57,861 bases of DNA from Chitinophagales bacterium (GTDB lineage: Bacteria > Bacteroidota > Bacteroidia > Chitinophagales > Chitinophagaceae): assembly GCA_013298665.1 (NCBI GenBank), contig JAAFIK010000010.1:44581-102441 (forward strand). The letters run 5' to 3'. The translations under genes and the position numbers were made by a program. This document shows, in pieces, positions 745 through 25,590 of this stretch; positions within the stretch are counted from its first letter, which is position 1; the number at the start of each line of letters is the position of its first letter. The notes below the pieces were generated by a model. It ran no database searches. It saw only the letters and a list, made by a program, of their open reading frames with translations, and had not been told where the DNA came from.

Positions 745-1056
745 AGCGGGAGAAGAAGACATCAGAAGCAGGAATAATAGCAAGAAAAGAAGACATCAGA
801 AGCAAGACGGGGTTCTGTCCTGATACCTGGTACTGGAAAAGACGGGCTTAGACGGGTAACCCTCGGCTTTACTACGGGGTTACCCCGGGGCTGCTATAGG
901 AAAGATGCTCTGAAGGTAGCAGGATAAGAAGACGCTGGTATCAGGAGGGGGACTAAGTACTTAGTAGCAGGATAAGAAGACGTAAGTATCAAGACGGGGT
1001 TCTGTCTGATACTTGGTACCAGATACTAAGTACCCGGTACTTGGGAATGCTTGTCT
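745..1056. repeat. Gene-free spacer filled with degenerate palindromic repeats
   Basis: No credible gene. The spacer holds imperfect copies of a motif of the form GCAGGATAAGAAG...GGTATCAGGAGGGG...CTAAGTAC: GATAAGAAGAC occurs near 925 and 969, and AGACGGGGTTCTGTC near 807 and 993. CTAAGTACTTAG (953-964) is a perfect 12-bp palindrome, and GGGTAACCC (854-862) with GGGTTACCC (877-885) forms a hairpin. The same elements return at about 19432, 48010 and other gene ends, so this looks like a dispersed intergenic repeat family. Confidence 0.6.
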
Positions 1057-10573: not shown

Positions 10574-11876
10574 AATCATTCTCCAGCTCCTCACGCAGTT
10601 CTTCGCTCATCGTCACCAAAAGTTTATCAATGCGCTGGCCATCCATATCCACGATCTCGAAATGGAAGCCTTTCCAGTCAAAATCATCACCTGTTTTTGG
10701 GATGCGCTCCAACTGGTGCAGCACGAACCCTGCGAGGGTATCAAATTCCTGCTCGCCTTCGTTCATCCATTCTGTTTTATCAAATCTTGTCAGGAAGTCG
10801 TAAAAGGGGAGTTGTGCATCCACCAGGAAGCTGCCGTCTTTGCGTTCGGTAATCTCATATTCTTCCTGTCCGCGCTGGGGTACATCACCCACAATGGCTT
10901 CAAGGATATCATTGAGGGTGATCATACCCTCAAGTGTACCATATTCATTTACAATAAAGCAACTGTGTATCCCCGTTTCCTTAAACTTTTCGAGCAACTG
11001 GTAGGCCGTATTGTTTTCCGGAACAAAGAGGGCAGTGCGCATGAGTTTTGACATGGGAAGGTCGGGATCGGTAGCGAGGAACAGGTCTTTCATAAAAACA
11101 AGACCCTTAATATTATCGATCATGCCCTCGCAAACCGGGTAAGAAGAATAGGGCTGGCTGCCAATCTTTGCTTTAACGGTACTGATGGTGTCGGTAATAT
11201 CCACCCAGGCGATGTCGGTACGGTGGGTCATCAGCGAAGTGATGTTGCGGTCGCCCAGGTGAAAGACCCGTTCGATGATTTCTTTTTCCTCTTCTTCGAT
11301 GGCACCATGTTCGCTGCCTTCGCTGATGATGGCCTTTATTTCTTCTTCTGTTACTAAGGTTTCATTGTATTGTTTGATGTTGAAGAGCCGGAACAGGAAA
11401 CCACTCACGCGGGTAAGGAGCCATACGATGGGGGCGGTAACTTTAGAGAAGATATCCATCGGGCCGGCCACCTGCCGGGCAATCTTTTCTGCCTTGAGCA
11501 TACCGAGGCGCTTGGGCATCAACTCGCCAAAGATGATGGTGAGAAAGGTAACAACAATAACGATCAGGGTGATGGACAGGGTAGCTGCATAGGGTTTAAA
11601 CAATTCCACTTTTTCGAGATAGGGGCGGAGGTGATCGCTGAATTTTTCGCCGGAATACAAACCGGTAAGAATAGCGACCAGGGTAATACCTATTTGAGCG
11701 GCAGAGAGGAATACTTCCGGATTTTCTGAAAGCCGGAGCGCCTTTTTGGCTTTCAGGTCTCCTTTGGCGGCCATGCTTTCGAGCCGGCTTTTACGGGCGC
11801 TGACGAGGGCAATTTCACTCATCACAAAAAGACCGTTGATGATGATTAATACTAAGAGTATGACGACTTCTACCAT
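10572..11876 (-). CDS. CNNM/CorC-like transporter, hemolysin-type family (DUF21-CBS-CorC)
   Basis: A 434-residue inner-membrane protein of the UPF0053/CNNM group, linked to magnesium or cobalt efflux and often annotated as hemolysin. Three parts are visible: a DUF21 membrane domain (1-~190) beginning MVEVVILLVLIIINGLFVMSEIALVSARKSRLE with the family hallmark SEIAL; a paired CBS region (~205-330, LMTHRTDIAWVD and GTLEGMITLNDILEAIVGDV); and the C-terminal CorC_HlyC domain (~345-430). The PAP2 gene lies 6 bp upstream, so the two are likely co-transcribed. Transport direction cannot be read from sequence. Confidence 0.93.
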   Translation of the reverse strand: MVEVVILLVLIIINGLFVMSEIALVSARKSRLESMAAKGDLKAKKALRLSENPEVFLSAAQIGITLVAILTGLYSGEKFSDHLRPYLEKVELFKPYAATLSITLIVIVVTFLTIIFGELMPKRLGMLKAEKIARQVAGPMDIFSKVTAPIVWLLTRVSGFLFRLFNIKQYNETLVTEEEIKAIISEGSEHGAIEEEEKEIIERVFHLGDRNITSLMTHRTDIAWVDITDTISTVKAKIGSQPYSSYPVCEGMIDNIKGLVFMKDLFLATDPDLPMSKLMRTALFVPENNTAYQLLEKFKETGIHSCFIVNEYGTLEGMITLNDILEAIVGDVPQRGQEEYEITERKDGSFLVDAQLPFYDFLTRFDKTEWMNEGEQEFDTLAGFVLHQLERIPKTGDDFDWKGFHFEIVDMDGQRIDKLLVTMSEELREELEND

Positions 11877-12527: not shown

Positions 12528-14519
12528 ATGCCTGTACGTTTGCCCCGCCTGTTGCGCTGGTCTATTGCTGTAACCCTGTTATTGCTGCTCGTCATGACGG
12601 TGGCCAGGCTGATCTTTAACGCACAGTACAGCCCGCATGACAAGCCTTTTTCAGGGTCGGCTTTTGTGCTGGGGCTGCGATACGATCTGCGTTATGCCTG
12701 TGCCGTAGGGTTATTGATGGTCATCCTCCCGGGTTTTCGCTGGCTGAATCCTTTTGTTATGCCGGGAGCCAGGCGTTTCTGGAATATCCTGCTGCCTTTG
12801 CTGGCGATGGCCTTACTCCTTTTTTACCTGATCGACTTTTATCATTTTGATTACCTGCACCAGCGCCTCAATGCAAGTGTGCTCAATTATTTAGACGATG
12901 CGGGTATTTCAGGAAAGATGGTTTTACAGACTTATCCCATCGTAACGATTACCGTCTTTTTTGTTCTGGTGTGTATACTTGTATTTGCCGGGTTTGCGCG
13001 TTTGCTGCGGCACTACCTGCTGGCAGGAGATAGTGGGGTAAGGGGTATTGGCGCCTATGTATTGGTTGTCCTTGTTTTTGGTGCATTGGTATATGGTAAG
13101 TCGGGGCAGTATCCGTTGCGCTGGAGCGATGCTTTTTTGCAGAACAGCGATTATAAAGCACACCTGGCGCTGAACCCCATGCAGAGTTTCCTCAGTTCGC
13201 TCAATTTCCGTAAGGCCAAACCCGACCCTGTAAAGGTCAGGGAAAGTTATGCGATGATGAGCAGTTATCTTGGGGTACAGCAGCCGGATGCGGCGAATCT
13301 CTCGTTTACCCGGCATACGGCCCCTGCCAAACAACCACGTCGGCTCAATGTGGTACTGGTGATTTGCGAAAGCTTTTCCGGCTACAAGAGCAGTATGTGG
13401 GGTAATCCGCTCAATACCACTCCTTTTTTTGACTCGCTCTGTAAAGGTGGTGTTTTCTTTGACCGCTGTTTTACACCGGCATATGGAACGGCGCGTGGGG
13501 TATGGGCTACAGTAACGGGTATACCGGATGTGGAGGGCACCAAGACGGCCAGCCGCAACCCGGCCGCGGTTGACCAGCATACCATCATCAACGATTTTTC
13601 CGCCCATGAAAAATTCTACTTCCTGGGCGGCGACCCTACCTGGGCGAATATACAGGGGCTATTGGCGAATAACATCAACGGGCTCCGTATATACAGCCAG
13701 GATAATTTCAATGCTAAAAAAGTTGATGTTTGGGGCATCAGCGATAAAAACCTTTTTTTGGAAGCCAATGCCGTGCTGGCCAAACAGGACAAGCCTTTTT
13801 TTGCCATCATCCAGACGGCTGATAACCACCGGCCTTACACGATACCGGCTGAGGATGCAAAGCAGTTTACCACCCAAACCTTTCCGCAGGACATCCTGAA
13901 AAAATATGGCTTTGAAAGCAATGCGGAAATGAATGCCTTTCGTTATACAGACTATTGTTTTCAGCAGTTTATGACTGCTGCAGCAAAAGAAAAGTACTTC
14001 GATTCAACGGTATTTGTGTTTGTCGGCGATCATGGCGTCCGGGGATCTGCGGGTGCCATGTTTCCCGCAAGCTGGACGGATATGGGGCTGACCTGTGAAC
14101 ATGTACCCCTGTTGTTTTATGCCCCCGGTCAATTGCCGGCCAGAAGAATTGGTACCATCAGCTCGCAGGTGGATATATTGCCCACGATTGCGGGACTGCT
14201 CAACCAGCCCTGCCGCAACACCACGATGGGGCGCGATCTCTTTAACGGCATGGGGCCACTGGCCTATCGGGAAAACAGCAACGTGCCGGCGCGTGCTTTT
14301 ATTATTGACCATGATGATAAGACCATTGGTATGATCTGCGACCGCTATGTTTACCGCAAAAACCTCAGTAGCGGAAAAGAAGACCTGGTTTCTTTTACCG
14401 ATAATAGTGTACTACCTCCCGGACCTGTTACCGACAGCGTACGGCAATCGTTGCGCAGTTATACCATTGCTTTTTTGGAAACGGCGAAGTGGATGCTGGT
14501 GAATAATAAAAAGCAATAG
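12528..14519 (+). CDS. LtaS-type sulfatase-fold membrane enzyme
   Basis: A 663-residue protein with five N-terminal hydrophobic segments (to ~190) and a large extracytoplasmic alkaline-phosphatase-fold domain. Lipoteichoic-acid-synthase relatives transfer or hydrolyse phosphoglycerol or phosphoethanolamine; Gram-negative Bacteroidota lack LTA, so the substrate is more likely a membrane glycan or lipid. Catalytic features: VICESFSGYKSS (metal Glu), nucleophile candidate Thr321 in GTARGVW, TADNHRPYTIP, and VGDHGVRG. It is divergent from the PAP2/CNNM pair. Its stop is followed 30 bp later by the 43-bp tandem array. Confidence 0.9.
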   Translation: MPVRLPRLLRWSIAVTLLLLLVMTVARLIFNAQYSPHDKPFSGSAFVLGLRYDLRYACAVGLLMVILPGFRWLNPFVMPGARRFWNILLPLLAMALLLFYLIDFYHFDYLHQRLNASVLNYLDDAGISGKMVLQTYPIVTITVFFVLVCILVFAGFARLLRHYLLAGDSGVRGIGAYVLVVLVFGALVYGKSGQYPLRWSDAFLQNSDYKAHLALNPMQSFLSSLNFRKAKPDPVKVRESYAMMSSYLGVQQPDAANLSFTRHTAPAKQPRRLNVVLVICESFSGYKSSMWGNPLNTTPFFDSLCKGGVFFDRCFTPAYGTARGVWATVTGIPDVEGTKTASRNPAAVDQHTIINDFSAHEKFYFLGGDPTWANIQGLLANNINGLRIYSQDNFNAKKVDVWGISDKNLFLEANAVLAKQDKPFFAIIQTADNHRPYTIPAEDAKQFTTQTFPQDILKKYGFESNAEMNAFRYTDYCFQQFMTAAAKEKYFDSTVFVFVGDHGVRGSAGAMFPASWTDMGLTCEHVPLLFYAPGQLPARRIGTISSQVDILPTIAGLLNQPCRNTTMGRDLFNGMGPLAYRENSNVPARAFIIDHDDKTIGMICDRYVYRKNLSSGKEDLVSFTDNSVLPPGPVTDSVRQSLRSYTIAFLETAKWMLVNNKKQ

Positions 14520-14549
14520 CAGGTACAACCCGGTAGCAGGAGGGGTCAA

Positions 14550-15108
14550 CCTAAACTTTTGATAGGTCGACCTATTCCTGCCCATAGGAGGACCTAAACT
14601 TTTGATAGGTCGTCCTATACCTGCCTATAGGAGGACCTAAACTTTTGATAGGTCGTCCTATACCCACCCATAGGAGGACCTAAACTTTTGATAGGTGGAC
14701 CTATACCTACCCATAGGCCGACCTAAACTTTTGATAGGTCGTCCTATACCTGCCTATAGGAGGACCTAAACTTTTGATAGGTCGACCTATACCAACCCAT
14801 AGGAGGACCTAAACTTTTGATAGGTCGACCTATACCAACCCATAGGCCGACCTAAACTTTTGATAGGTCGACCTATACCTACCTATAGGCCGACCTAAAC
14901 TTTTGATAGGTCGTCCTATACCTACCTATAGGCCGACCTAAACTTTTGATAGGTCGACCTATACCTACCTATAGGAGGACCTAAACTTTTGATAGGTCGT
15001 CCTATACCTACCCATAGGAGGACCTAAACTTTTGATAGGTCGACCTATACCTGCCTATAGGAGGACCTAAACTTTTGACAGGACGACCTGCCTGGGGAGG
15101 GACAGATA
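14550..15108. repeat. Thirteen-copy 43-bp tandem repeat array
   Basis: The 17-mer CCTAAACTTTTGATAGG begins at 14550, 14593, 14636, 14679, 14722, 14765, 14808, 14851, 14894, 14937, 14980 and 15023, an exact 43-bp period; a diverged thirteenth copy begins at 15066. All twelve cores are identical. Variation is confined to a few columns: TCGTCC/TCGACC/TGGACC, then TACCTGCC/TACCTACC/TACCAACC/TACCCACC, and AGGAGGA/AGGCCGA. GACCTA and TAGGTC flank an AACTTTTGA loop in each unit, and TAGGTCGACCTA is itself palindromic. Period 43 is not a multiple of 3 and no frame is maintained, so it is non-coding. It fills the spacer between the LtaS-like gene and the gene at 15285. Confidence 0.97.
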
Positions 15109-15284
15109 CAGATTGTGTAAACTGCCTCAGGATTCTTGGGGTCATTCCACAGCCCCCGGCGACGGAGAGTATTGGGTGGGTAGTGAGACCGTTTCAGCCC
15201 GTTTGCCAGTACCACTTTGTGGTATTGACCGGGGTTTGGCGGATGGCTATCTTGCGACATCTTTTCATTAAAACCTTATTTTTT

Positions 15285-16211
15285 ATGTCAGTCAAAGTCA
15301 CTATTGATATTTTTAGTGGTCGCCCCAACCCCGAACTGGTACTCAGTGCCGCAGCAGCAAAAGCCCTGTTTAACGAAGTATCGCCGGTGGGTGCCATGCG
15401 GAAAGCGGGTGCCGCTAATGTACCTGCGGCTCCGGAGCACCTCGGGCTTCGTGGTGTACAGGTGGAACAGTTGAAATCGGTAACCAAAGAGTTTCCCGAA
15501 TCCTTTTACCTTTCGCACGAAACGATGTTTACCGGTACGCGCGCAGCCGCTATGAAAGATACCGGTACTATGGAGCGACTGCACAAACTGATTGTGTCTA
15601 AAAGCAGCCAGATTACAGGTGCAGGCAAGATTCGTCAGTTTTTAAAGGTTTACAAAGATGAACTCAATGCCTCAGCGGGTGCCCGGGAAAAATCGCTTGC
15701 GGCAGGACCAATCATTCCTGCCCCCTTGCCATTGGCTACCTGCAAGTGCGGCCCGGTGTATGAACCCGACTGGTGGAACCTGAATCCTGCCATCAAGGGC
15801 AATAATAACTGTTACAATTATGCCTGCAACCAGCGTACAGACAGTTTTGCGCAACCGGGCCTTGCTACGGGTAATAAATATACTTCACTGGCTGGTTGTG
15901 CTGTGGCTGCCGGTCAGAAAAGTGCAAAAACGGGCGCCATCAGCGATGCCCTGATTGATACCCCTTTGGCGAATAATAAATGTCCGGATAAGGGCCATCT
16001 TGTAGCACTGGTGATCTGGCCGGATGTTGATTTCCATTGGTACCGCAAGGGCGTGAATACCTTATGGAGCCATAAACCCGGCCCTACATCCGTTACCAAC
16101 TTAGACAATGCAGGCGCCATCATTACCGATCCGCGTACCGCCAATCGTGGTAGTTATACGCAGTTCTGTACCTTTATGAACGTATTGAATGGACATATCT
16201 GCATCAGGTAA
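15285..16211 (+). CDS. Unknown protein: FSGRPNP domain plus papain-like C-terminal half
   Basis: 308 residues from ATG 15285; an upstream GTG/ATG extension to 15075 runs into the tandem array and is improbable. The N-terminal ~110 residues begin KVTIDIFSGRPNPELVLS (residues 4-21), a domain shared with the next gene. After a linker, the C-terminal half has NNCYNYACNQRTDSFAQPG (Cys near 179), GHLVALVIWPDVDFHWYRKG and LWSHKPGPTSVTNLDNAG. The spaced Cys...His order in this half recalls papain-like cysteine hydrolases, but this is inference. No signal peptide, so cytoplasmic or non-classically exported. The stop overlaps the next gene by 23 bp, so the two are translationally coupled. Confidence 0.8.
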   Translation: MSVKVTIDIFSGRPNPELVLSAAAAKALFNEVSPVGAMRKAGAANVPAAPEHLGLRGVQVEQLKSVTKEFPESFYLSHETMFTGTRAAAMKDTGTMERLHKLIVSKSSQITGAGKIRQFLKVYKDELNASAGAREKSLAAGPIIPAPLPLATCKCGPVYEPDWWNLNPAIKGNNNCYNYACNQRTDSFAQPGLATGNKYTSLAGCAVAAGQKSAKTGAISDALIDTPLANNKCPDKGHLVALVIWPDVDFHWYRKGVNTLWSHKPGPTSVTNLDNAGAIITDPRTANRGSYTQFCTFMNVLNGHICIR

Positions 16212-20036: not shown

Positions 20037-21443
20037 ATGAAGATTTGTAAGATATATTTAAAGGGCTACCAGCAGTTCCAGGATGTGGTATTAGACTTCA
20101 CACACCCTGAAACGGGTGAGCCATTGGATAAAATTTGTCTGATTGGGAGCAATGGGACGGGGAAGACGACATTGCTGGAAATGCTGAACGATGTGGTGGA
20201 TATATTGAAGTATGGAAAGCGTAATTTTTTTACGTTCTTTAATGCGATGACAACTTTTGTAGCAGTCATGTTCAAAGATAAAAACAAGCGTTATTATTTT
20301 TTGGGTAATGGATATGATTTAAAAGGGTACTTTTTTTCCTGCGATATAGATTTTGAGTTGATTGATGAGGATGATTTTAGCAATCTTAACTCTGGGTCGG
20401 ATTGGCCGAAATTCTTCAGTGATCTTACCCAAAACCCATTTATTGAGGATGTAAAGGAGTCGTTTATAGGATACGTTAAAAGTAATATTTTTCTTCAATT
20501 ATTTTCCTCTCATGAAGGTCAAAATAACGGGTATGCTAAAATCAAAGATGTTCCCACTACAAATGTCAATGAAGCCATAAGGCTATTTGATAATCTTCCC
20601 AGTGACGCGATGATTAGCCCCGATACTGTCAATGACTTCTGGAGACTATTAGTTTACAATATAAAGAAGCGAGAAAATGACCGGAATGCCTTTGAGGAAA
20701 TGGATGGAAATATGCAGCGTATCAAGGCCGATTTGGTAAATGAATTTAATAATAAAAACCCAAATGTGCTGGAAGAGTTAGCCATCATTTGGGATAGGAT
20801 TTTGGATAAAGCTGGTCTGTTTTTTAATTACAAAGCAGCAAAAAACCCTGTTCAGCTAAATGAAAACCTGCACGCATACATCTGCCTGAAGGGAAGCAAT
20901 AAGGTAGTGCCGTACAATCGGCTCAGTTCAGGTATAAGGGATTATATCTTCAGGGTAGGCCATATTTTCGCCATGTATTTCAACCGGGAAGTTGACCAGG
21001 CTGTTTTGCTGGTAGATGAGCCGGATAACAGCCTCTACACCGATTTTGTGCTGGATTTATTGGATGTGTATAAGCAGATTACTACAGATAAGAGGGGCGA
21101 AAACCATACGCAGATGATATTTGCTACACATAATCCGTTGTTTGCAGGTCAATTTAAGCCTTATGAGCGAATAATTTTGAACTGGAATAATGATGGTAGT
21201 ATCTCTGCCCGGAAAGGAACAGCACCGGTGGGTGATGACCCGAATGACTTGCTTAGTGAGGATTTTGGCCTGGCAAACCTGATGAGCAAAGAAGGACAAA
21301 AAATGTGGGAAAAATATATTAATCTGAAAAAACAGTTGATACGCTCAACTGATATGAAAGAAAAAGATACACTTGTTGAAGAAATAAACCAGATTGCAAG
21401 TTTGTATAAGTTTAACCTGTATGAAATTCCTGTCGAAAAGTAA
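20037..21443 (+). CDS. ABC/SMC-type AAA ATPase, PtuA-like (putative defence)
   Basis: 468 residues of the RecF/SMC-like ATPase group. Walker A GSNGTGKTT (37-45), ABC signature LSSGIRD (from 296), Walker B LLVDEPDNS with Asp327/Glu328, and a switch His in ATHNPL (365) are all present, so ATP hydrolysis is expected. Between Walker A and the signature lies a ~220-residue helical insertion; the C-terminus is a short helical segment. The next gene overlaps by 23 bp and codes an HNH-like protein; an ATPase followed by a ~200-residue HNH protein is the Septu (PtuA/PtuB) layout, also seen beside retrons. No reverse transcriptase or other partner is nearby. The DNA is clearly more AT-rich than its neighbours, consistent with transfer. 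Confidence 0.85.
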   Translation: MKICKIYLKGYQQFQDVVLDFTHPETGEPLDKICLIGSNGTGKTTLLEMLNDVVDILKYGKRNFFTFFNAMTTFVAVMFKDKNKRYYFLGNGYDLKGYFFSCDIDFELIDEDDFSNLNSGSDWPKFFSDLTQNPFIEDVKESFIGYVKSNIFLQLFSSHEGQNNGYAKIKDVPTTNVNEAIRLFDNLPSDAMISPDTVNDFWRLLVYNIKKRENDRNAFEEMDGNMQRIKADLVNEFNNKNPNVLEELAIIWDRILDKAGLFFNYKAAKNPVQLNENLHAYICLKGSNKVVPYNRLSSGIRDYIFRVGHIFAMYFNREVDQAVLLVDEPDNSLYTDFVLDLLDVYKQITTDKRGENHTQMIFATHNPLFAGQFKPYERIILNWNNDGSISARKGTAPVGDDPNDLLSEDFGLANLMSKEGQKMWEKYINLKKQLIRSTDMKEKDTLVEEINQIASLYKFNLYEIPVEK

Positions 21444-22023
21444 AGAATCTGTGATACTGGCAGAGGGGCTTGTTTACCGGCAAAATTCCTCAAAAAACAA
21501 CCAGCGGCTGAAAGAAATGCTGGTGGCTGAACAAAAAGGATATTGTGCTTACACAGAAAAGTACCTGCAGCCGTTGGATTCAGTGGAGGTAGAACACCTG
21601 GATGCTGCAAGAAAATATGCAGATGATTATTATAACTATTATGCTGTTATAAGAAACGCCAATCTTTACAAGCAGGATGAAAAATACAAAGGTGCATATT
21701 TTTTGGAGAGTTTATTCTTTCATAATGAAGTAGCCGTGGGTGAAAGAATAGGATTTAGCGAGAATGTATTTTACGAACTGGATGAAAATGATACAGAGGC
21801 AAAAGATTTTATAGACTTTCTGAACCTGAATCATCCTAAGCTGTCCGGACAGCGTTCGACACACCTGGCAAAATTGAGGGATACTTTCAGGGATGCCCAA
21901 TATGGTAAAGAAGACATTCTTCGCTACTTTGAAAAACATCCCGCCGAACTTAGTTATGTAACAGCGCTTGAACATGGATTAGAAATAAATTTATTTGAAC
22001 TATTGATTAATATAAACGATTAA
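21421..22023 (+). CDS. HNH-like protein, PtuB-like (putative defence effector)
   Basis: 200 residues from ATG 21421 inside the ATPase end; an earlier GTG-type start would only lengthen the overlap. The region EMLVAEQKGYCAYTEKYL (32-49), VEVEHLDAARKY (56-66) and YYNYYAVIRNANLYK (70-84) follows the HNH order seen in TIGR02646/PtuB proteins, where CAYCE, IEHFRPK and NLLLxC..CN are usual. Here Glu58-His59 and Asn81 are kept, but the partner Cys is Thr45 and the second Cys pair is absent, so the zinc site seems lost. Either it works without zinc or its nuclease activity is reduced. The stop lies 2 bp before the pruA ATG. Confidence 0.7.
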   Translation: MKFLSKSKESVILAEGLVYRQNSSKNNQRLKEMLVAEQKGYCAYTEKYLQPLDSVEVEHLDAARKYADDYYNYYAVIRNANLYKQDEKYKGAYFLESLFFHNEVAVGERIGFSENVFYELDENDTEAKDFIDFLNLNHPKLSGQRSTHLAKLRDTFRDAQYGKEDILRYFEKHPAELSYVTALEHGLEINLFELLININD

Positions 22024-23732: not shown

Positions 23733-23915
23733 CTACGAGCAGTACCAGTTGCGGCAACTGCAACCGGTCTTGCAAACCCCGGCACCCGCACCGCATTCGC
23801 CATAGCAAACAACGTTCGGATCTTTGGGGCCTACCAGGCCACCAAGCAATTGCTTCATCTCTTCACGCTTCAGCGGCTTCATTTCCGCCAGCATGCTTTT
23901 CTTCATTGTTTTCAT
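23733..23915 (-). CDS. Cys-rich GG-leader peptide (putative RiPP/bacteriocin precursor)
   Basis: A 60-residue peptide. The leader MKTMKKSMLAEMKPLKREEM followed by KQLLGG has the Lys-rich, EMxxLxGG shape of the GG-Bacteroidales natural-product leaders (TIGR04149 group), with the cut expected after Gly25-Gly26. The 34-residue core (27-60) holds six Cys at 37, 41, 48, 52, 54 and 59 and small residues between, fitting a compact disulfide or thioether peptide. I choose ATG 23915; ATG 23906 is a possible alternative and a longer frame to 23984 lacks leader features. It lies 100 bp behind the VKOR-fusion gene on the same strand. The modification or bactericidal role is inference. Confidence 0.75.
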   Translation of the reverse strand: MKTMKKSMLAEMKPLKREEMKQLLGGLVGPKDPNVVCYGECGAGAGVCKTGCSCRNWYCS

Positions 23916-24015
23916 AATACCTGTTTTGGATGATCGTGCAGTGATTGCCAACTGTACGGTTTGATGATAACCAAAGGCAATCATAAACCTTGCGGTTTAT
24001 CTTTGGTGCAAACTG

Positions 24016-25590
24016 TTATGGTTTGGGTAAAACACCGGGTAATTGCGGCAGCAATTGTGCAAGGTCATCAAGGTTGTACCTGCCGGGAATTTTCCGGCCA
24101 TTGATAAAAAGGGTAGGTGTGTACTCAATATTATGCTGCGCTATCCATTGCTGGTGACGCAACAGCGCTTCATGTACATCCATGCCTGCATCAGTTTTCC
24201 ACTTCTCCTGCCAGGTGTCATCATTCATCCATTCAAACCAATCGCTGAGCATCTGGTGTACATCCTTCTCTGTATTGGCTTTACGCGCAGCCCTGAGGAT
24301 GGATTTTACCGCAACCGTGTATTTATTGGCTTCGTCGTCGGGAACGGATAACAGCCGTACCTGCACCTGCAGGATGCCACTGAACCGATGCAACAGTTGA
24401 TCGAGTTGGCGATGGGTGATGGCACAGGGGTTGCAGTAAGGACTGCAGGCAGCGGTAATGCGTAGTGGGCTGTCAGCTTCACCCATCAGTAAATCCTGTG
24501 GCCATACCGTCGTATCAACGGGCTGCTCTTTTGCCCATTCCCCGGCAAAAAGCACCGGGTCAAGCTTCCATTTTTTCAATTCGGCAAGTTTCAATTTTGC
24601 TTTACTGCTTTCTTTGACCAGGGTTTTTATCGGGAAAAAGCCCGCACTCAGTAATAACAGCAAACCCGCAAAAGACAATATGGTCCAATAGGTTATTGGT
24701 GTGCGCGGTATGGCAAAAGCGAGACCGGCCTGTAACAGGAGTACGAGTACAATGGCCAGGCAGAGTGCGCACCATTGCCTGATCTTTGTGGCCTGGATAA
24801 ACAGGCTCCAGGCAGAAACAGCGATACCACCAAATGCGAACAGCCACATGGCAGACAGCAAGGGGGGATAAAAAATGCCCGCAGCATAGCAAATGAATTG
24901 CGTGCAGAAATACAGTAAGGATACATCAGCAGGGGTAATGCCCAGCCATCCCACAGCATATTTACTTTGTAAAACACGCTCGCAACCACCTTTGCTGATG
25001 GCGCCACATACCTGTTTAACCAATTGATTCTGTAAGCCCATTTCCACCCCCGAGGCATATACACTGATGCAGAGGCCGCATAAGGAGAGAAAACCAAAGA
25101 CAGGATAGAGGGGATTGCTGAATATGGACACCGTATATACAAGTATAGCCAATCCTGTTAATGAAAGAACCAGGGCAGTTAGTTGCTGCTGCTTTGCCCG
25201 TTTACGGTAAGCCGTATGCTGTTCGGTTGCCCAGTGGGTATTCTTTTCCGGAAAAATAACAACCCCCGTCCAATGTTCTTTTAAATCCGTATCCGTTTCC
25301 CAACTGCCGCTGCTGGTTACCGTTTTCAGGTATTGGTATTCCGGCAGGCGGATATGTGCCAGCACCGGATAATTAAATTCATGGATGAGTGAATGATCGG
25401 CTCTTACCGCCTGATAAGCCATTCCGCCGCTGTCTAAGAAATCGATAACCGAGGTCAATGCGGGATAATCCGGATGTGTGGTGATCTCTTCCCTGCAGTA
25501 ATTGGCATCTGGCTTATAGCCGCAGGCTTTCAGCCATTGGTGTGTTACCCTCCAAAGCAGGGTGTCGGGGTTGGATGTATGATTTGTCAT
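24016..25590 (-). CDS. C39-like/VKOR/DsbA-like fusion, disulfide-forming membrane protein
   Basis: 524 residues in three parts. Residues 1-~115 resemble the C39 peptidase fold seen in bacteriocin exporters: Cys32 in YCREEITTHPDYPALTSVID and a strand order ending WTGVVIFPE; a catalytic His/Asp set is not evident, so it may bind rather than cut leaders. Residues ~135-320 are a membrane VKOR domain with Cys195, Cys203 in GGCERVLQSKYAVGWLGI and the redox pair CALC (274-277). Residues ~375-524 are thioredoxin/DsbA-like with CNPC (386-389) and TPTLFINGRKIPG, carrying the cis-Pro. The design couples quinone reduction to disulfide formation. It precedes the Cys-rich peptide gene, so its likely substrate is that peptide. 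Confidence 0.88.
   Translation of the reverse strand: MTNHTSNPDTLLWRVTHQWLKACGYKPDANYCREEITTHPDYPALTSVIDFLDSGGMAYQAVRADHSLIHEFNYPVLAHIRLPEYQYLKTVTSSGSWETDTDLKEHWTGVVIFPEKNTHWATEQHTAYRKRAKQQQLTALVLSLTGLAILVYTVSIFSNPLYPVFGFLSLCGLCISVYASGVEMGLQNQLVKQVCGAISKGGCERVLQSKYAVGWLGITPADVSLLYFCTQFICYAAGIFYPPLLSAMWLFAFGGIAVSAWSLFIQATKIRQWCALCLAIVLVLLLQAGLAFAIPRTPITYWTILSFAGLLLLLSAGFFPIKTLVKESSKAKLKLAELKKWKLDPVLFAGEWAKEQPVDTTVWPQDLLMGEADSPLRITAACSPYCNPCAITHRQLDQLLHRFSGILQVQVRLLSVPDDEANKYTVAVKSILRAARKANTEKDVHQMLSDWFEWMNDDTWQEKWKTDAGMDVHEALLRHQQWIAQHNIEYTPTLFINGRKIPGRYNLDDLAQLLPQLPGVLPKP

Follow-up and report, generated by a model that had tools for sequence, protein, structure and literature searches.

The tandem array of 43-bp units in the window (the whole stretch of 57,861 nucleotides of a Chitinophagales draft genome that was analysed) belongs to a dispersed palindromic minisatellite of which this genome holds 24 pieces, and in which mirror-image modules of 17 and 18 nt alternate with 4-nt linkers. 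It is considered about an even chance that the copies of this minisatellite spread and remain alike because they recombine, or switch templates, with one another. It is of a known general kind, closest in style to BrickBuilt and to BIMEs, and its strict grammar of two modules on a pitch of two DNA turns recurs in a genome from another family of the order.

In the window, the array occupies positions 14550..15108 of the + strand, as twelve full 43-bp units followed by a diverged thirteenth. TRF reports a single array in the window, at 14549-15089, with a period of 43, 12.6 copies, 92% matches and 0% indels. The 17-bp core is found there twelve times exactly and once with a single mismatch, at strict 43-bp spacing; the 13 occurrences compare with a mean of 0.12 and a maximum of 1 in 100 shuffles used for comparison. 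Both results confirm the sequence-only reading in its description of a 43-bp array with twelve identical cores and a diverged thirteenth. The span that it gave stands for the array proper, while the last ~20 bases up to 15108 belong to it only weakly; the last copy (15066..15108, +) begins with the one-mismatch core, and divergence starts soon after the core. The left boundary is formed by GGAGGGGTCAA (14539..14549, +), which contains GGGTCAA. On the upstream side, the gene of a sulfatase-family membrane protein (PF00884; 12528..14519, +) ends 30 bp before the array, and on the downstream side lies the gene of an FSGRxNP protein without a Pfam match (15285..16211, +). The array had been called non-coding, and no long ORF runs through it: among the ORFs of at least 80 aa listed for the window only one touches it, and this one begins with a TTG at 15075, within the last copy.

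The source genome is a draft of 4.83 Mb in 108 contigs, 98.7% complete. Three units used as a blastn query gave 74 matches in it, and the pattern CCTAWACTTTTGATAGG occurs in it 134 times. Twenty-five genome regions, chosen for holding the array, were fetched, and 24 of them contain a piece of at least two units. Ten of these pieces are complete and 14 stop at contig ends (7 left ends and 7 right ends), so that the true number of arrays is likely 17, with 17 to 24 possible. The 24 pieces hold 171 cores (up to three mismatches allowed), and all 147 core-to-core distances are exactly 43 bp. With the cut-off loosened to four mismatches, an extra core-like stretch appears in one region (L076), 21 bp and not 43 bp before the first unit. 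Two single decayed copies are also present, in L091 and at 10712 on the minus strand of L078. According to a crude longest-ORF caller, from which the gene neighbours are also taken, the complete arrays are intergenic, one of them overlapping the 3' end of a gene by 21 bp, and a few short ORFs begin inside a last copy. No known repeat family or transposon end that would account for the unit, which the sequence-only reading had named as a refuting result, was found, but the array does belong to a genome-wide dispersed family, which is invisible from the window.

The fact that 14 of the 24 pieces stop at contig ends is also what could be expected if the assembler had shuffled or multiplied the units, and in a draft of 108 contigs the unit order may hold assembly errors. 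Such an assembly artefact is considered very improbable, as ten pieces lie inside contigs, a one-contig relative (G060) has dispersed arrays of its own with a 42-bp period, and hardly any two-unit word is repeated (125 adjacent pairs are of 122 types), so that long words can order the units.

Each unit is composed of module A (17 nt), a 4-nt linker, module B (18 nt) and a second 4-nt linker, both modules having CCTA and TAGG as feet. In unit 1 (all + strand), module A is at 14550..14566, with a 9-nt middle between its CCTA and TAGG feet, and recurs in each unit at +43; the first linker, with the variable columns 19-21, is at 14567..14570; module B, of the form CCTAT..ATAGG, is at 14571..14588; and the second linker, with the AG/CC variant of columns 40-41, is at 14589..14592. 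Unit statistics were derived from 149 full units, 22 of the 171 cores being excluded because they are cut by a contig end or have more than 12 differences. The 149 units represent 73 distinct sequences, and 29 of the 43 columns are invariant. The cells that differ from the commonest base number 5 of 2682 in the stems, 177 of 2533 in the loops and 193 of 1192 in the linkers; that is, the stems are near-invariant and the linkers variable. Five base pairs of module B are kept in all 149 units. Pairs 2 and 3 of module A likewise never vary, whereas pair 1 varies in two units and pair 4 in three, and at the fifth position of this module all 149 units have A-A. These features support the palindromic design that had been proposed for the unit, in the form of two palindromic modules. 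The pitch of the modules equals two DNA turns (21 + 22 bp) and may be kept by the amplification process or by DNA geometry.

When 181 nt of the array are folded, they surpass shuffled sequences (z -5.3 as RNA; z -4.0 as DNA of the other strand), as inverted repeats must. Such folding, and the position of some arrays whose ends lie 14 and 21 bp before a gene (crude ORF calls), would suit a structured RNA or local gene regulator, in which transcribed hairpin arrays would tune the neighbouring genes. A role of this kind appears very improbable, because columns 21 and 40 show no association above shuffles in the 149 units of this genome, in agreement with the earlier remark that the arms do not covary strictly; because Rfam yields over 14000-15700 only three matches far below the gathering score (best E 0.82); and because promoter-like and terminator-like sites are at chance level and the neighbours are unrelated.

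The variation among the copies bears on how they were spread. Units differ by 3.29 positions within pieces and by 3.52 between pieces, and with shuffled piece labels the mean difference is 3.51 (S. D. 0.084; lowest of 500, 3.249). Since the two distances are near the shuffled value, the variants are almost fully mixed between loci, although units of the same piece are slightly more alike. As many as 12 of the 24 pieces contain the commonest unit, in accord with the absence of CRISPR-like spacers that had been claimed; the unique spacers of a CRISPR array are lacking, the variable segments being common to several loci. Two types of adjacent-unit pairs are common to two pieces, versus 4.5 expected under random order, and therefore whole runs of units have not been copied recently.

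Association among the seven common variable columns is strongest at 1–3 bp (V 0.33; null 0.13), is lower at 4–8 bp (V 0.18; null 0.09), and is at the null level from 9 to 30 bp. That between columns 21 and 30 reappears at an offset of one unit, and weak associations of longer range are seen for columns 12-34, for columns 27-41 and once at 97 bp. The double-base variant CC (columns 40-41), present in 35 units and 15 of the 24 pieces, combines with common alleles of six other columns, and all four combinations exist in 20 of the 21 pairs of common columns. Mixing is incomplete, as 71 distinct segment combinations are observed versus 78.2 (S. D. 2.8) under free shuffling. First units are slightly more diverged than the others (3.12, n = 16, vs 2.44, n = 133), which may reflect, though weakly, the edge effect that unequal exchange should produce.

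Mixing between loci, together with variants that are mostly unlinked beyond ~9 bp, points to exchange, and short-tract exchange among the copies would explain the mixing of variants best. Part of this pattern could also arise if a few columns that tolerate change had mutated repeatedly. The proposal, made from the window alone, that copies had spread by unequal exchange or conversion is supported by the mixing, the decay of linkage and the allele combinations. The exchange that acts as the agent of spread would be gene conversion, unequal crossing-over, or template switching prompted by the hairpins. No enzyme or mobile element tied to the arrays was found in this analysis. The array would then be chiefly a repeat of selfish or neutral character, without the role of an operator for the neighbouring genes, which it may still affect through the structures that it can form. 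The zero length change in 147 steps and the near-invariant stems could equally mean selection for function.

A function of this sort would be provided by a phased binding platform, on which a dimeric protein would occupy CCTA..TAGG dyads spaced about two helical turns apart, the arrays serving as anchoring or segregation sites by analogy with the F-plasmid centromere. This is the main rival to exchange among the copies, and it is regarded as rather unlikely. It would fit the exact 43-bp spacing and the 29 invariant columns, as well as the conservation of the feet in a relative (G146, see below) whose loops differ. The F centromere, sopC/parS, for its part consists of twelve 43-bp tandem repeats with ten 16-bp inverted repeats, as given in PMC6238139. 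The likeness to sopC/parS is one of numbers (twelve 43-bp repeats that hold inverted-repeat sites), a comparison that does not extend to the sequences; the F site is, in that description, a single plasmid locus with a known partner protein, whereas here there are 24 pieces in a draft genome and no known partner. Against a binding platform also stand the absence of a candidate protein from the findings, the presence of about 17 loci instead of one, and the A-A at the fifth position of module A, which leaves the dyad short. Moreover, other arrays of G146 have different palindromes at the same pitch, which one sequence-specific protein hardly fits.

The 43-bp unit itself is confined to the source genome within the sets searched. 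The genus-wide comparison that the sequence-only reading had proposed gives a match in one of 93 genomes, namely the source genome, and none in the 92 others; the source genome is also the sole match in a mixed set of 59 relatives. The exact 17-mer core is found in 32 stretches of the GTDB collection, one match each. None of the 32 has a second CCTA..TAGG module within 45 bp, and these solitary matches are therefore taken as chance. There is no match of the array in plasmids or phages, of the 19-mer in viral contigs, or of the G146 array in plasmids. A word search of titles and abstract starts of open-licence papers found none that describes the 43-bp unit or its grammar.

In viral contigs, the A-A form of the grammar pattern matches 22, whereas a control pattern with different feet matches 24; multiple matches or a three-module chain occur in 3 of the 22 and in 1 of the 24. 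For the A-B form there are zero matches in both orientations, where the other two patterns would suggest some tens, and these zeros are treated as uninformative. Two of the 22 were read: L281 is a dispersed element that looks unrelated, and L284 (with L277, which has the same module) looks, in an untranslated reading by eye, like a coding glycine-proline repeat.

The grammar, as distinct from the sequence, does recur. The pattern CCTA-N9-TAGG-N4-CCTA-N10-TAGG, with only feet and spacing fixed, was run on 396 genomes of the order; 13 of the 395 others belong to the same genus, most of which lies outside this sample. Beyond the source genome, it is found six times in one contig of G146 and once each in G210 and G374, and the reversed control pattern gives five single matches over the 396 genomes. 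Tandem matches outside the source genome are seen in G146 only, a member of another family. The G146 array (L269, 233-568) comprises 16 modules, each 17 or 18 nt long, and the linker between them is 4 nt in 15 of 15 cases, in a search that admitted modules of these two lengths only and left the linker length free. Between its module types the inner stem pairs 5 and 6 are changed on both sides (G-C, C-G vs A-T, T-A). A similar pattern has 22 matches, on both strands, in the contig of this array versus 0 in 1.28 Mb of other relatives. Two further G146 arrays (L336 and L338) have palindromic modules of 21/22 bp, with ACCTAAACTTTT present 10 and 5 times. For the 15-mers of the source-genome units there are 19 matches in 0.53 Mb of G146, of which the twelve listed all lie in L336, and none in 1.18 Mb of other relatives.

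Periods near two DNA turns are frequent in G146. The sample covers 0.53 of 5.4 Mb and is made up of contig starts, where repeats are over-represented, including the contig chosen for its array; it has 40 arrays above threshold, 33 of them with periods that deviate by no more than 1 from a multiple of 21. For the 28 arrays without a long open frame, 26 periods are within 1 bp of a multiple of 21 and the other two are 235. The binomial p value for these periods (3e-20) is only indicative, because some of the arrays with 21-bp periods may be related to one another or be coding repeats of 7 codons. At L317-L355 of G146 there are many arrays of 21-bp period with unrelated units, several of them at contig ends.

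In the fetched regions of the source genome, the periods are 43 (23), 42 (2) and 21 (2). Five other relatives were sampled: G061 lacks such arrays, and each of the remaining four has one or two. In the one-contig relative, G060, there are three dispersed 42-bp arrays (L224, L225 and L229), and the hairpin of the 42-bp array switches on both sides, TCTAC/GTAGA vs TCCGC/GCGGA. Within the genus, a 43-bp array of 2.6 copies with a GTTTGTC..GACAA hairpin is present in G003 (L153, 5526-5638), where it adjoins an apparent RAYT reading frame, as read by eye. This array and a 33-bp RAYT array of G025 indicate that other periods and arrays exist in the genus. It is a tentative and rather doubtful idea that in some genomes of the order repeats are amplified by a process with a fixed step of two DNA turns, making 21-, 42- or 43-bp units from unrelated, often palindromic sequences and shuffling them between loci; the 43-bp array (21 + 22) would be one family of its products and G146 an active host.

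Transposase-driven multiplication offers another origin. The arrays may be BIMEs, that is, REP-like hairpins multiplied by a Y1 transposase (RAYT) since lost or lying in an assembly gap; this is judged improbable. As PMC2817692 describes it, the BIME-2 plan has two alternating palindromes and two linkers, which the 43-bp unit resembles, and the unit shows the regularly spaced palindromes in modular tandem order that characterize REP/BIME (147 of 147 spacings). The same paper reports that a third of RAYTs adjoin BIMEs, and the RAYT counts in the genus agree. Y1_Tnp (PF01797) is present in 82 of the 93 genus genomes, and tandem arrays of varied periods are carried by 12 of 30 genus RAYT loci (one per genome, the best-scoring; L199-L223 among them), versus 7 of 293 background windows. 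Yet Y1_Tnp has 0 matches in the source genome (within its 98.7% complete draft), and a constant GTAG or CGTC tag is lacking from the units: CGTC (columns 19-22) is possible only with a T at column 21, which 72 of the 149 units have, and the loop columns able to give GTAG on the other strand also vary. The periods at RAYT loci are mostly different (26, 33, 38, 41, 51-53, 112-113, 142, 146 and 170); the 42-bp arrays of G060 are not at its RAYT, and the 33-bp RAYT array of G025 is at one locus only. Since the constant tag and the enzyme are both missing, the array is not filed as a BIME, though it may work like one.

The likeness to BIME-2 and REP elements with RAYT, as these are described in PMC2817692 and PMC3733652, thus extends to alternating palindromes, two linkers, head-to-tail order and intergenic position, and ends at the tag and the enzyme. 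BrickBuilt of Porphyromonas gingivalis, reported in PMC4596501 as a minisatellite in a MITE at 19 loci, is like the 43-bp arrays, by that account, in being a set of dispersed intergenic tandem arrays in a Bacteroidota genome, with variable copy number and long predicted stem-loops, and in that some loci have shared leader or tail segments, as do some 43-bp arrays. It differs in having a 23-nt unit with 0–6% indels, whereas the 43-bp array has no indels and two palindromes per unit, and in having a leader and tail whose terminal inverted repeats resemble those of IS5-family elements, in contrast to the 43-bp arrays without constant ends. The LTRR of heterocystous cyanobacteria, according to PMC2408588, are likewise tandem, genome-wide and intergenic, some of them hairpin-forming; they belong to another phylum, and the likeness is one of description and not of compared unit sequences.

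The ends of the arrays are not constant. Of the 17 left ends seen, 6 have GGGTCAA before the first unit, and a tail of 134–146 bp, with 95–98% identity, is common to four right ends. The tail repeat has at least 23 matches in the genome (a lower bound from 40 of 45 candidates scored), of which 8 adjoin an array or are at most a few hundred bp away from one, the other 15 being elsewhere; being mostly far from arrays, it is a separate dispersed repeat. A MITE with fixed ends was rejected, the shared tail being independent and GGGTCAA being found at only 6 of 17 left ends. A copy of the tail repeat is also in the window, at 835-964 (-). A second set of tandem arrays, with 21-bp and 42-bp units, lies directly beside the 43-bp array at two contig ends (L082, 397-692, and L090, 9106-9569); such adjoining arrays are recorded for C30 and C33. 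The upstream flanks of L068, L069 and L070 are alike (72–95%), and these three arrays may have travelled with a duplicated gene region.

The genes next to the arrays are diverse. Thirty array-adjacent proteins were compared with Pfam, and they include a sulfatase, DnaG, TruB, LspA, a biotin ligase, a dehydrogenase, a response regulator and others; six have no Pfam match. Three sensor proteins with propeller and Y_Y_Y domains are the sole neighbour type seen repeatedly. A special tie to the FSGRxNP genes, before which the array had been noted to sit, is not supported, as the other arrays adjoin unrelated genes, and a regulon likewise lacks support, no common function being seen among the 30 proteins.

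Two other loci of the window were seen in passing. A Septu-like defence pair (PADLOC-DB) lies at 20037-21443 and 21424-22023 (+), with a PtuA-type ATPase (E 3.7e-86) and an adjoining PtuB-type protein (E 4.9e-38). A small peptide with a double-glycine-like LLGG stretch, read by eye, is encoded at 23733-23984 (-) beside a VKOR and thioredoxin-like protein (Pfam; 24016-25590, -), and the two may form a secreted-peptide locus, as far as the sequence suggests.

If spread by exchange among the copies is true, the genome holds a palindromic minisatellite at many loci, with its copies mixed between them almost at random, which would mean unusually active exchange without a recognised transposase. The common geometry (17/18-nt modules, 4-nt linkers and a two-turn pitch) would tie the array to arrays in another family of the order. 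The arrays would then provide a testable system for the multiplication of short repeats, and would help to explain the positions at which draft genomes of this kind are broken.
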